A stretch of DNA of 32,188 nt from contig NZ_CAMTIK010000025.1 in the NCBI RefSeq assembly GCF_947072685.1, positions 1 to 32,188 of the forward strand. The letters run 5' to 3'. The notes under the pieces were generated by a model. The model ran no database searches, was not told the DNA's origin, and worked only from the letters and a program-made list of their open reading frames with translations. This stretch comes from an uncultured Cetobacterium sp. Its GTDB lineage: Bacteria > Fusobacteriota > Fusobacteriia > Fusobacteriales > Fusobacteriaceae. Below are positions 1,976 through 7,318 of this stretch, piece after piece (within the stretch, counting starts at the first letter, position 1; the number at the start of each line of letters is the position of its first letter). The translations under genes and the position numbers were made by a program.

Positions 1976-3037
1976 TTATTGTTGGATTCCAGGATATGCC
2001 CAGATTCCAGAAGTTCTAATTAAATCTCTATAGATAACTAATTTTTCAGCGTCAGAAACTACTTGAGCTTCTTCAAGAGTTGGATAATCTAGTTGAACTA
2101 AATTGGTATATTTAATATTTAATCCTTTTAATTTAGCAGCCTCTTCAAAAACAGAAAGTCCTCTTCTAATATGACTAGCACTAGAGATAAGAGTTACATT
2201 TTCAGGAGATAATTTAGCTAAGATTTCAGTAGAATAAATAGCATTTCCAACAGTATCTTTAGCCAAGTCATCCATATGGATAAGATATGCGGGAACTCCA
2301 TTGGAAACTAACCAATTCTTCATAACATAGGCTTCAGTAACGCCACCTTTTTGAACACCACCAGAAACTATAATAGGTGATTTTGGATTTTTTCTGTGAA
2401 GAGCTAATCCCTGTTTAAGTCTTTCAATCAATGTCGGTTTCATAGTTCCATTTTCACCCAGAGCATAACCAAGTATAACGATAGCGTGCTTACCTTCAAC
2501 TTTGAAAGCTTCTGTATTTAGTTTAATAGCCATATTTTTATCAGCATTTTCAAACTTCTCTAAATAAGCTTGAGTTTTTTTAGGGTGAGTTTTTTTTAGA
2601 TTCTCTATAGTTTCAGAGTAAGTTTTTATATCCCCAGTCTGTTTAGAGTATCCTGCTAAAAGAATGCTTGCTTCAAAATTTTCAGGATAAAGAACTAAAA
2701 TTTCTTTATAGGTATTTAAAGCTTCGGTAGTTTTCTTTTGTATAATTTGGGTTGATGCAACTCCAAATCTTAAATCAGTTCTGTATGGACTGATATCGCT
2801 GGCTTCTTTGAAAGAGTTTTCAACGACATCATATTTACCTTTTAATGTAATTCCTCTAAAAAATTCTTTTTCAACTTTACCTAAATCTCCACCATGCCAA
2901 TAGTAGTGAATACCAGTTTGAGTAAGTTGAGCGATATTGTTTTGTTCTTGTGAAGATGGGTACTTGTTTGTAGATGTGCATCCAGTTAAAAGAATAAATC
3001 CAAGAATGCTCGATACTAATTTCATTTTGTTGTTCAT
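1976..3037 (-). CDS. Lipoprotein with TPR-like region and YdcF/DUF218 domain
   Basis: Predicted exported lipoprotein of 353 aa. The signal peptide ends in LLTGC (Cys20). Residues about 85-165 look helical and TPR-like (DISPYRTDLRFG, then LVLYPENFEASILLAGYS). Residues about 184-345 form a YdcF-like domain: AIVILGYAL, then IIVSGGVQKGGVTEAYVMKN, GVPAYLIHMDD and a TVGNAIYS motif that corresponds to the usual T-x-EN. YdcF/SanA-type proteins are linked to cell-envelope processes and some bind SAM, but no reaction is established for this architecture. It is the first gene of a likely operon with the binding protein and permease, though a functional link to transport is not obvious. CAGGAGG lies 6 nt before the start. 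Confidence 0.8.
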   Translation of the reverse strand: MNNKMKLVSSILGFILLTGCTSTNKYPSSQEQNNIAQLTQTGIHYYWHGGDLGKVEKEFFRGITLKGKYDVVENSFKEASDISPYRTDLRFGVASTQIIQKKTTEALNTYKEILVLYPENFEASILLAGYSKQTGDIKTYSETIENLKKTHPKKTQAYLEKFENADKNMAIKLNTEAFKVEGKHAIVILGYALGENGTMKPTLIERLKQGLALHRKNPKSPIIVSGGVQKGGVTEAYVMKNWLVSNGVPAYLIHMDDLAKDTVGNAIYSTEILAKLSPENVTLISSASHIRRGLSVFEEAAKLKGLNIKYTNLVQLDYPTLEEAQVVSDAEKLVIYRDLIRTSGIWAYPGIQQ

Positions 3038-3208: not shown

Positions 3209-3237
3209 TTGATTTTATATAGAGTATATGGTAAAAT
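3209..3237 (+). promoter_or_regulatory. Sigma-70-type promoter upstream of the purine riboswitch
   Basis: TTGATT at 3209-3214 and TAAAAT at 3232-3237 with a 17-bp spacer. The expected transcription start near 3244 precedes the riboswitch P1 helix by about 16 nt. Confidence 0.6.
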
Positions 3238-3259
3238 TATTTTGTGAAATAGTTACTAA

Positions 3260-3324
3260 ACTTATATAGATTCGTGATAAGGACGAAAGTTTCTACGCTA
3301 AACCGTAAATTTGGCACTATAGGT
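3260..3324 (+). promoter_or_regulatory. Purine riboswitch aptamer, guanine class
   Basis: The three-way junction aligns with the Bacillus xpt guanine aptamer. P1 pairs ACTTATA (3260-3266) with TATAGGT (3318-3324). P2 is short (TTCGT with ACGAA) and closes loop GATAAGG. The junction GTTTCTAC (3289-3296) is the canonical J2/3. P3 is GCTAAA with TTTGGC around loop CCGTAAA, whose CC can make the loop-loop pairs with GG of L2. The specificity base is C (3317, xpt position 74), which in this family pairs with guanine or hypoxanthine; adenine sensors have U. P2 seems one base pair shorter than xpt, with an A-A mismatch at its base. The residues U47, U51 and A52 are all conserved. Confidence 0.9.
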
Positions 3325-3382
3325 GAAAGTGAATTGGGAATATTTACCCCAGTGGGCTTTTGCTTGCTGGGATTTTTTATTT
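3322..3382 (+). terminator. Riboswitch expression platform: intrinsic terminator and antiterminator
   Basis: Terminator arms CCCAGTGGGC (3348-3357) and GCTTGCTGGG (3362-3371) form about 10 pairs with G-U wobbles around a TTTT loop, followed by ATTTTTTATTT. An alternative pairing, GGTGAA (3322-3327) with TTTACC (3343-3348), uses the 3' side of P1 and runs into the terminator arm. TTGGG (3334-3338) can also pair with the CCCA of that arm. Ligand binding would hold P1 and free the terminator, so the predicted logic is OFF with guanine. Confidence 0.8.
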
Positions 3383-3393
3383 GGGAGGATTTT

Positions 3394-4788
3394 ATGAAAA
3401 AGTGTTTGAAAGGAATTATGTTGTTAGGGAGTTTTTTAGTATTGGGTTGTACGCCATTACAAACGAAAAAAGAAGAAGCAAGTATTATAATAAAAAATGG
3501 AACTCTTTTAACAATGAATAAGGAGAGGGAAATAATAAAAAATGGAGTTGTGGTTATAAGAAATAATAAAATAATTTCAGTGGGCGATGAAAGTTTATTA
3601 AATAATTATTCAGCTAAAAAAATAATAGATGCTAAAAATGGAATTGTTATGCCCGGGATGATAAATACTCATACACACGCCTCAATGACAGTATTTAGAT
3701 CTTTAGCAGATGATGTACCTGATAGATTAAATAGATATATATTTCCTTTAGAAGCTAAAATGGTAACACCTGAACTCTCATATTTGGGAGCAAAGCACGG
3801 AGCAATGGAGATGGCTTTAGGTGGGGTTACAACTATGGTAGATATGTATTTGTATGAAGAGAATGCAGCAGTAGCTGTAAAAGAGGTTGGACTTAGAGGA
3901 ATAATGACACAAAATATCATTAAATACCCTACTGCTGATGGACAAAATAAAGGAGAGACATTGGATAGGGCAATAGCTTTTGTTGAAAAATATAAAAATG
4001 ATGAGTTAATAACACCTGGATTTGGCCCACATGGTCCACATACTGTGACAAAAGAGGAGCTTTTAAAAATAAAAGAGCTTTCTAAAAAATATAATGTACC
4101 TGTTTCTATGCACGTGGCAGAAACAGATGTAGAGTTTGATAAAATAAAAAAAGATTATGGAATGACACCAGTTGAATATTTAGATTCAGTAGGGCTTTTA
4201 AATGAAAGATTCATATCAGCTCACAATATATTTATAACTGATAGTGATATTGAACTTATGAAAAAAAGAGATGTTGGGGTTGCACATAATATGGTTGCTA
4301 ATATAAAATCTGCAAAAGGGATATCACCAGCATTGAAAATGCATGATGAGGGATTAAGAGTAGGGTTAGGAACAGATGGTCCAATGAGTGGGAATACATT
4401 AGATATAATTGGGCAGATGGGATATGTAGCTAAACTACATAAACTTGCGAATAAGGATAGATCTGCAATGCCACCAAAGAAAGTGGTTGAGATGGCTACA
4501 ATAGGTGGAGCAAGAGCAATTCATAGAGAGAATGAGTTGGGAAGTCTAGAAAATGGTAAATTAGCTGATATTGTTATTGTAGAGACAGAATCTGTGAATA
4601 TGAATCCGATTTTTGATCCATACTCTGCACTTGTTTATTCAGCTAATGCGAGCAATGTTAACACTGTTGTAGTGAATGGAAAAATTATTGTTGATGATAA
4701 GCAATTAAAAACTGTAGATGTTAAAAAATCAATAAAAGATATCACTGATTTTAAAGAAAAAGTTCAAAAAGTGGCGGATACTCTATAA
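3394..4788 (+). CDS. Lipoprotein amidohydrolase, MTA/SAH- or nucleobase-deaminase-like
   Basis: Metal-dependent hydrolase of 464 aa from the TRZ/ATZ amidohydrolase family, which includes 5-methylthioadenosine/S-adenosylhomocysteine, adenosine and guanine deaminases. Metal and catalytic residues are visible: HTHASM (His93, His95), GPHGPH (His213, His216), HVAET (His240, Glu243), AHN (His277) and GTDG (Asp328). The start at 3394 follows GGGAGG and gives a lipoprotein signal ending LVLGC (Cys19). A longer frame from GTG at 3274 would run through the riboswitch and is rejected. The lipobox implies an extracytoplasmic enzyme, which is unusual for this group. A guanine riboswitch precedes it, so its product or substrate probably touches purine salvage. 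The exact substrate cannot be read from the sequence. Confidence 0.88.
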   Translation: MKKCLKGIMLLGSFLVLGCTPLQTKKEEASIIIKNGTLLTMNKEREIIKNGVVVIRNNKIISVGDESLLNNYSAKKIIDAKNGIVMPGMINTHTHASMTVFRSLADDVPDRLNRYIFPLEAKMVTPELSYLGAKHGAMEMALGGVTTMVDMYLYEENAAVAVKEVGLRGIMTQNIIKYPTADGQNKGETLDRAIAFVEKYKNDELITPGFGPHGPHTVTKEELLKIKELSKKYNVPVSMHVAETDVEFDKIKKDYGMTPVEYLDSVGLLNERFISAHNIFITDSDIELMKKRDVGVAHNMVANIKSAKGISPALKMHDEGLRVGLGTDGPMSGNTLDIIGQMGYVAKLHKLANKDRSAMPPKKVVEMATIGGARAIHRENELGSLENGKLADIVIVETESVNMNPIFDPYSALVYSANASNVNTVVVNGKIIVDDKQLKTVDVKKSIKDITDFKEKVQKVADTL

Positions 4789-5505: not shown

Positions 5506-5528
5506 ATTTTTAAAATTATATAAAAATT

Positions 5529-5608
5529 ACTAGGGGAGCCTTTTGGCTGAGAAGTTTTTAACTGACCCTTTGAACCTGATCTGGATAGTACCAGCGTAGG
5601 GAAGTATC
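5529..5608 (+). promoter_or_regulatory. TPP (THI-box) riboswitch aptamer
   Basis: The signature elements of the thiamine pyrophosphate aptamer are present in order: GGGG near 5533, GGCTGAGA (5544-5551), ACCCTTTGAACCTGATCTGG (5565-5584) and ACCAGCGTAGGGA (5590-5602). TACT and AGTA close the P1 helix. Bound TPP is expected to favour the downstream terminator and lower thiD-thiM expression. Confidence 0.97.
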
Positions 5609-5652
5609 AAATTGAAGTTAAGCATAATTTTATTATGTACTTTATGTATTTG

Positions 5653-5709: not shown

Positions 5710-6516
5710 ATGAAGAAAATTTTAACAATAGCAGGATCAGATTCTTGTGGTGGAGCAGGAATACAGGCGGATTTAAAAGCTATGAGTGCCCATGGAGTTT
5801 ACGCAATGAGTGTGATAACAGCAATTACAGCTCAAAATACAAAAGGAGTTTTTGCGGTTCAAGAGCTTGGAAATGATATTATAAAAAAACAGATAGAAGT
5901 GATATATGAAGATATTCAAGTTGATGCAGTGAAAATAGGTATGCTTTCAAGTATTGATATTATAGAAATTGTTGCAGAGAGTTTGAAAAAAGTTAATGCT
6001 AAAAATATAATTATAGATCCAGTTATGGTTTCTAAAAGTGGGTATTATTTGTTACAAGAATCTGCAGTCGATGCGTTGAAAGAATTGCTGAAAATAGGAA
6101 CTTTGGTGACTCCAAACATACCAGAAGCAGAAATACTTTCAGGGATAACTATAGAGAGTGAAAAGGAAATGATAGAGAGTGCTTTTATAATAAAAAAAAT
6201 GGGTGTGAAAAATGTTTTAATTAAAGGTGGTCATCGAAACGATAACTGTACGGATATTCTTTTAACAGAAAGTGGAGAGATTATTAAATTTTTAGGCGAG
6301 AGATTTGAGACAATAAATACTCATGGAACAGGATGTACACTGTCATCGACAATAGCTTCTTACATTGGAAAGGGTATGAGTATAGAAGAATCTGTAAAGC
6401 AGGGGAAAAACTATATAACAAAAGCAATAGAGAACTCATTTTCAATAGGAGAGGGAGTTGGACCAGTAGGTCATTTTATAGAACTGTATAAAAAAGCGGG
6501 TGTTGACTATGAATAG
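5710..6516 (+). CDS. thiD: Hydroxymethylpyrimidine/phosphomethylpyrimidine kinase
   Basis: Cytoplasmic kinase of 268 aa, the usual family length, that phosphorylates HMP and HMP-phosphate to give HMP-PP for thiamine assembly. The ribokinase-like fold shows AGSDSCGGAGIQADLK at the N-terminus (8-23), QNTKGV near 42, DPVMVSKSG at 103-111 and the anion-hole motif HGTGCT at 205-210, whose Cys209 matches the catalytic position. TATAGGAG lies 7 nt before the ATG. Expression is expected to be controlled by the TPP riboswitch just upstream. It overlaps the next gene, thiM, by 8 bp, so the two are probably translationally coupled. Confidence 0.96.
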   Translation: MKKILTIAGSDSCGGAGIQADLKAMSAHGVYAMSVITAITAQNTKGVFAVQELGNDIIKKQIEVIYEDIQVDAVKIGMLSSIDIIEIVAESLKKVNAKNIIIDPVMVSKSGYYLLQESAVDALKELLKIGTLVTPNIPEAEILSGITIESEKEMIESAFIIKKMGVKNVLIKGGHRNDNCTDILLTESGEIIKFLGERFETINTHGTGCTLSSTIASYIGKGMSIEESVKQGKNYITKAIENSFSIGEGVGPVGHFIELYKKAGVDYE

Positions 6517-7318
6517 AGAGAAAAATTTAGATGAGATTGTATCAAGTTTAGAGAAGGTACGAAAAAAGACTCCATTAGTTTATCATTTAACTAATACAGT
6601 GACAATGAATGATTGTGCAAATGTAACTCTTGCTGTAGGTGCTTCACCATTGATGTCATTTTGTTTAGAAGAGATGGAAGAAATTATAGGATTTGCATCA
6701 AGTGTTGTTATAAATATAGGAACTATGGAAGAAAGTATGGTTAAAATGGCTGTTAAAGTTGGAAAAATTGCAAACAGATTAGATAAACCGATAGTTTTAG
6801 ATCCGGTAGGAGCTGGAGCAACACAAGCTAGAAAAAATCTTTTGAAAGAGTTGCTATCTAAAGTTAAATTTTCAGTTATAAAGGGAAATGTAGCTGAAAT
6901 AAAAGCTATTTTAGGTTTAGATTCAAATACTAGAGGGGTAGATTCTTTAGAGAATGAAGTGAATGGGGTAGAATTAGGAAGAAAAATAGTAGAAAAATAT
7001 GGTGCTGTAGCAGCAATAACAGGTAAAGTAGATTATATTATTGGAAGTGATAGAAGTATAAAAGTAAAAAACGGATCTTCTAAAATGGCTAAAGTTACAG
7101 GAACAGGATGTATGACAGCATCTTTAATAGCTAGTTTTTTAGGAGCTGGAGTAGAGAGTTATACATCAGCTATATCAGGAGTTTTAATAATGGGAATCTC
7201 TGGAGAAGTTGCATCTGAAAAATTTATAGGAACAGGAAGTTTGAAGGTATCTATAATTGACAATATTTCGACTATAGATAAAAAAATGATAGAAATAAAA
7301 GCGAATCTGGTATCCTAA
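6509..7318 (+). CDS. thiM: Hydroxyethylthiazole kinase
   Basis: Phosphorylates 4-methyl-5-hydroxyethylthiazole so it can be joined to HMP-PP. The 269-aa protein carries TPLVYHLTNTVTMNDCAN (21-38), GASPLMS (44-50), VLDPVGAGAT (97-105) and the catalytic VTGTGCM (Cys201). ATG at 6509 overlaps the thiD stop within ATGAATAG. A GTG at 6500 is in frame but would enter thiD further without a better ribosome site. With thiD it forms a salvage pair for the pyrimidine and thiazole halves. Thiamine-phosphate synthase (thiE) and the de novo genes are not in the window. The last codons form the left arm of a terminator whose loop holds the stop codon. Confidence 0.95.
   Translation: MNREKNLDEIVSSLEKVRKKTPLVYHLTNTVTMNDCANVTLAVGASPLMSFCLEEMEEIIGFASSVVINIGTMEESMVKMAVKVGKIANRLDKPIVLDPVGAGATQARKNLLKELLSKVKFSVIKGNVAEIKAILGLDSNTRGVDSLENEVNGVELGRKIVEKYGAVAAITGKVDYIIGSDRSIKVKNGSSKMAKVTGTGCMTASLIASFLGAGVESYTSAISGVLIMGISGEVASEKFIGTGSLKVSIIDNISTIDKKMIEIKANLVS

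Follow-up and report, generated by a model that had tools for sequence, protein, structure and literature searches.

Why a purine riboswitch of the guanine class should precede the gene of an exported enzyme is the question raised by the leader and gene at positions 3260–4788 of the window, the 32,188-nucleotide stretch of Cetobacterium DNA analysed here (Table 1). The reading we favour, with a probability of roughly 0.63, is that a guanine-I OFF switch controls an exported COG0402 lipoprotein that deaminates an adenosine-type nucleoside outside the cytoplasm, with feedback from the product.

Table 1. Features of the riboswitch-controlled gene (window positions)
Feature	Position	Strand	Details and basis
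Candidate promoter	3209–3237	+	TTGATT-17-TAAAAT, extended -10 (TGG before it); consensus scan, weak
Predicted guanine-class purine riboswitch aptamer	3260–3324	+	RF00167 match; pocket bases invariant in 15 leaders
Helix P1	3260–3266/3318–3324	+	
Helix P2	3271–3275/3283–3287	+	
Helix P3	3297–3302/3310–3315	+	
Antiterminator	3321–3365	+	3321–3329 with 3357–3365; inner helix 3334–3338/3348–3352; folding at growing 3' ends
Intrinsic terminator	3348–3378	+	Stem 3348–3357/3362–3371 (10 bp), T-run 3373–3378; same place in homologous leaders
Shine-Dalgarno GGGAGG	3383–3388	+	Sequence
Exported lipoprotein amidohydrolase, predicted adenosine-type nucleoside deaminase	3394–4788	+	464 aa, COG0402; PF01979, PDB matches, lipobox

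A search with the Rfam Purine covariance model (RF00167), the check proposed by an earlier sequence-only reading of this locus, returned a match at 3242–3339 (+) with 60.2 bits and an E-value of 3.3e-8, above the gathering cut-off of 37 bits. The specificity base is the C at 3317 (C74 when aligned with the RF00167 family), and the pocket, computed directly for 15 leaders from three genera, is invariant throughout (U20, A21, U22, A23, G46, U47–A52, A73, C74, U75, and A76). P2 and P3 covary across these leaders, with the helices retained and several of them maintained through compensatory changes. Less favourably, P1 of the window aptamer is A/U-rich with one G-U pair. Folding of the whole leader is modestly better than that of shuffled sequences (z = -2.0, with 7 of 200 shuffles equally good), and the case therefore rests on the covariance match and conservation. 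Judged by these, the leader RNA is an ordinary guanine-I (C74) purine riboswitch, in agreement with the guanine-class assignment of the sequence-only reading, whose limits for the element (3260–3394) correctly span the first base of P1 to the start codon.

A terminator scan of the 380-nt region gave two terminator-like sites, with 0.1 expected from shuffles. The OFF-type 10-bp terminator described earlier is recovered with its T-run, and to it can now be added an antiterminator that is mutually exclusive with both P1 and the terminator. The 5' strand of this element, AGGUGAAAG, overlaps the 3' strand of P1, and its partner, CUUUUGCUU, is drawn from the loop and 3' arm of the terminator; the inner helix is UUGGG/CCCAG, and three pairs of the window antiterminator are G-U. 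In folding at growing 3' ends, P1 is closed for RNAs ending up to 3357, the minimum-energy structure at 3365 is the antiterminator with P1 open (-25.0 kcal/mol), and from 3371 onward P1 and the terminator fold. As the antiterminator forms with a partial 3' arm of the terminator, and the terminator with a complete one, the decision would be co-transcriptional, and an OFF response to ligand is therefore predicted. Terminators and antiterminators were assessed leader by leader rather than counted per alignment column, since the MAFFT alignment misregisters the terminator of L030 and the hairpin finder errs in L015 and L017. Thirteen of the 15 leaders fold the antiterminator; the other two, L015 and L017, where the wrong hairpin was picked automatically, are near-identical to L016, which does fold it. 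The pairing survives changes of sequence, being AAGUAAAAG/CUUUUGCUU in a large part of the genus, AGUUAAAG/CUUUAACU in L022, and AGCAAAGGUC/GACUUUUGCU in L030. A transcriptional switch of OFF type is supported by both conserved sequence and the mutually exclusive antiterminator; its direction in vivo we infer from these structures. Further upstream, the promoter consensus scan gave four sites, with 2.4 expected by chance.

The gene starts at the ATG at 3394, preceded by GGGAGG. An alternative GTG start at 3274 (504-aa frame) was rejected, as it lies inside the aptamer and its frame crosses the riboswitch. The product belongs to Amidohydro_1 (PF01979, 5.4e-75), and its nearest PDB entries, both by sequence and by the fold of an AlphaFold2 model (mean pLDDT 89.8), are adenosine, MTA, and SAH deaminases. 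The HxH, H, H, E, H, D metal and catalytic set of the amidohydrolase fold is present, with H93, H95, H213, H240, E243, H277, D328, and E120, aligned to the metal and ribose sites, invariant in 23 homologues. E120 aligns with a Glu of 4F0R and 3LNP that binds ribose in the solved enzymes. Where the solved adenosine deaminases have a Trp in the motif 'WL..Y.WP', the family has an invariant Arg, R111, after a two-residue deletion; in view of this replacement the substrate may differ, for example at its 5' end.

Export is indicated by the lipobox LVLGC, with the Cys at residue 19, a pattern present in all 14 lipoprotein sequences checked. Fusobacteriota are diderms, and so a lipoprotein signal alone does not imply surface anchoring of the protein; for lipoproteins with T or S at position +2 the default destination is the periplasmic face of the outer membrane, which would by default be the site of this enzyme. 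The earlier proposal of an exported deaminase is borne out insofar as the protein is a lipoprotein placed in the adenosine/MTA/SAH-deaminase branch of COG0402. The protein shares 52–73% identity with homologues in Vibrionaceae, Moritella, other Gammaproteobacteria, and Opitutae, most of which carry an apparent signal sequence; those in two Bacillota and in one other Fusobacteriota genus (g8) are without one. In 18/18 Opitutae loci fetched, the homologue is preceded on its own strand by a nucleoside hydrolase gene, which usually adjoins it, and an adenine deaminase gene lies directly upstream of both Bacillota homologues. In several Opitutae (L060, L080, L106, L085, L086, L061, and L081) the nucleoside hydrolase and exported deaminase genes form a row with one for a large exported protein resembling TonB-dependent receptors.

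Among 98 Fusobacteriota genomes, 24 encode a relative of the protein at E <= 1e-100. A survey of homologous genes for the same aptamer, also suggested by the sequence-only reading, found a purine riboswitch upstream of the orthologue in every one of the eight other genomes of the genus that have one (L014–L021), and likewise in two other genera, in a single genome of each (L022 and L030); none was found before the relatives in five further genera (g8, g11, g13, g14, and g24). With eight switches in 2.15 Mb, the chance of one lying within 150 bases of a given gene is near 5e-4. Four changes are required to explain where the switch occurs on the tree, including one for the distant cytoplasmic row, and separate gains and losses are indistinguishable. 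Exported orthologues without a purine switch occur in other Fusobacteriota, Vibrionaceae, and Opitutae, the covariance model having been run on the Fusobacteriota loci only, and the role of the enzyme would thus be independent of the switch. A second lipoprotein paralogue (~50% identical) lies behind a purine riboswitch in four genomes (L037–L040). Direct comparison, used for the paralogue leaders because position-by-position identity is blurred by indels, shows that the aptamers of the two paralogues of one genome (G005; L015 and L038) differ at 3 of 70 bases. The first 90 residues of the two paralogues are 67–73% identical, compared with 38–49% over the next 270, and a 5' module shared or exchanged between them could account for both similarities.

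Three other explanations of the locus were considered, two of which concern the RNA. An aptamer adapted to another purine (adenine, xanthine, 2'-deoxyguanosine, or guanosine) is very unlikely: variants of this scaffold do exist, often beside unusual genes (PMC9295807), and position 24 varies here (A/T/G among the 15 leaders), but C74 argues against adenine, and U22, U47, and U51 are canonical and invariant. Guanine is contacted in this RNA family by U22, U51, and C74, and the xanthine-II variant is defined by insertions in J2-3 and J3-1 (PMC9295807), joining regions that are free of insertions in 15/15 leaders; the variant ligand classes were rejected for the window aptamer on its pocket bases. 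Marginally less probable still is a decayed riboswitch without regulatory effect, leaving the gene constitutive. The window copy is among the weaker matches of its own genome (60.2 bits in a range of 59.3–77.9), and its antiterminator includes the G-U pairs noted above; however, pocket, terminator, and antiterminator are intact, both in the window and in a relative with a 95%-identical protein, as well as across the genus.

A more serious alternative, to which we give about two fifths of the weight of the favoured reading, keeps the same switch and gives the exported enzyme a different substrate, be it a free base, a pterin, 8-oxoguanine, or an anionic molecule like AMP. In its favour, the protein reaches no NCBIfam equivalog cut-off (best 399.7 vs 609; MTA/SAH and 5'-deoxyadenosine deaminases 235.4 vs 779 and 315.1 vs 522), R111 takes the place of the Trp, and COG0402 also holds guanine and 8-oxoguanine deaminases, among others. 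Against it, the protein matches the guanine and 8-oxoguanine deaminase profiles much less well (147.6 and 245.2 vs 399.7 bits), and guanine deaminase as an identity was discarded (TIGR02967, 147.6 vs a cut-off of 375.4). Adenosine deaminases head the fold ranking, the neighbouring genes of homologues are those of nucleoside hydrolase and adenine deaminase, and the homologues all keep the Glu that aligns with the ribose-binding one. An adenosine-type nucleoside is thus the likely substrate rather than a free base, and the product is most likely a deaminase of adenosine, 5'-deoxyadenosine, MTA, or SAH; given the missed equivalogs and R111, the substrate is predicted as a class rather than as one compound.

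With a guanine-I switch and an adenosine-type substrate, the locus would operate as follows. When guanine or hypoxanthine, the predicted ligands, is bound, P1 would hold 3318–3324 and leave 3357–3371 free for the terminator, so that polymerase would stop near 3378; when ligand is absent, 3321–3329 would leave P1 to pair with 3357–3365, and the gene would be read through. Low guanine or hypoxanthine would thereby lead to production of the exported deaminase, which would convert 6-aminopurine nucleosides to 6-oxopurines outside the cytoplasm. The inosine-type product would presumably be imported and cleaved to hypoxanthine, itself a switch ligand, closing a feedback loop. The genome also encodes a NupC-type transporter, PNP-superfamily enzymes, and a nucleoside hydrolase.

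The switch resembles the guanine-I xpt-pbuX riboswitch of Bacillus subtilis in its three-stem junction, in C74 and U22/U47/U51, in the conserved L2 and L3 bases, and in being a predicted transcriptional OFF switch with terminator and antiterminator; it differs in lying in a Fusobacteriota genome and controlling an exported lipoprotein deaminase. The add riboswitch of Vibrio vulnificus is an ON switch with U74 that senses adenine and controls a cytoplasmic enzyme of the A_deaminase family. It shares with the window switch its RNA family and a target that deaminates adenosine (here predicted), whereas the window switch has C74, an OFF-type terminator, and an exported COG0402 enzyme. In Cetobacterium relatives, add follows a purine aptamer of its own (L149, L172, and L176), as does an ade-like gene in Propionigenium maris (L144); the two read, L149 and L144, are of the adenine type, with U74. 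The protein, in turn, is comparable to the COG0402 deaminases 4F0R/4F0S, 3LNP, 4DZH, 4GBD/4DYK, and TM0936 in fold (the first five give TM-scores of about 0.9), metal site, and ribose-binding Glu, and is set apart by 28–31% identity, its lipoprotein signal, and R111 for W with the two-residue deletion. Variant guanosine and 2'-deoxyguanosine riboswitches, which sense nucleosides, precede purine nucleoside hydrolases (PMC9295807); they are alike in placing a purine-scaffold RNA over a nucleoside-processing enzyme, but are predicted ON switches of Firmicutes with altered joining regions.

Eight purine riboswitches occur in the genome of the window. Seven precede purE-purK, guaA, four purine permeases directly, and the window gene, and the eighth precedes an operon of a cytoplasmic COG0402 enzyme with a fifth purine permease downstream of it (purE, purK, and guaA being identified by reading of sequence). 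The contrast drawn earlier with the usual targets of guanine riboswitches therefore stands for the exported enzyme, but not for the genome as a whole, as its other switches serve synthesis genes, permeases, and a cytoplasmic enzyme. In the same genome, a U74-type aptamer at L006 1450–1600 (-) has its P1 3' strand over the Shine-Dalgarno of a purine permease and looks translational, and a cluster resembling the ygeX/ygeY/hydantoinase/ssnA/xanthine permease genes of purine degradation lies at L043 166–7762 (+), a stretch in which no purine riboswitch was found.

Sampling of the regulon in six Fusobacteriota genomes revealed purine aptamers in relatives (G007, G010, and G012) before exported MtnN-type nucleosidases and BMP/PnrA-type binding proteins, in some also before Ade and Add. 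The nucleosidases (PNP_UDP_1 behind a signal peptide) follow aptamers at L147 and L155 (G010), L185 and L189 (G007), and L188 (G012), and BMP/PnrA-type substrate-binding proteins at L139, L186, L177, L136/L148, and L146. In G010, the aptamers read upstream of exported genes have C74, including two before MtnN-type genes, and P. maris (G053) has one BMP/PnrA-type gene behind two U74-type aptamers in tandem. Purine riboswitch numbers are high, with 15 in G010 and 17 in G053. What the C74 set has in common, as read from its predicted targets, is the supply of 6-oxopurines, the putative ligands of the switches. Tentatively, and at slightly less than even odds, purine (mostly guanine-class) riboswitches of Cetobacterium and near relatives may run an exported purine-nucleoside salvage system, in which extracellular 6-aminopurine nucleosides are turned into 6-oxopurines and these end products in turn shut the system down. 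Its proposed members, under the same reservation, are two lipoprotein deaminases, two exported MtnN-type nucleosidases, BMP/PnrA-type proteins, Ade, the cytoplasmic COG0402 deaminase, and purine permeases.

In the open-licence literature, no report was found of the window gene or of an exported purine regulon, and as far as the searched literature shows, a guanine switch in charge of predicted exported deaminases, and in relatives of a broader group of exported nucleoside-salvage proteins, would be new. Guanine riboswitches would then control enzymes outside the cytoplasm as well as cytoplasmic synthesis and uptake, and a hypothesis of function is offered for exported amidohydrolases that form a broad, uncharacterised family in Fusobacteriota, Vibrionaceae and relatives, and Opitutae. 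If adenosine-type nucleosides are what the enzyme removes, the bacterium would destroy adenosine in its surroundings at a rate set by its guanine status.

Other elements were noted around this locus. Divergent from the gene, at window 1976–3037 (-), lies a further lipoprotein that combines a TPR-like part with a DUF218 (ElyC-like) domain. Additional riboswitches include a TPP riboswitch at window 5522–5619 (+; 80.4 bits), upstream of thiD-like (5710–6516) and thiM-like (6500–7318) ORFs, and, elsewhere in the same genome, a fluoride riboswitch at L044 2165–2224 (+).
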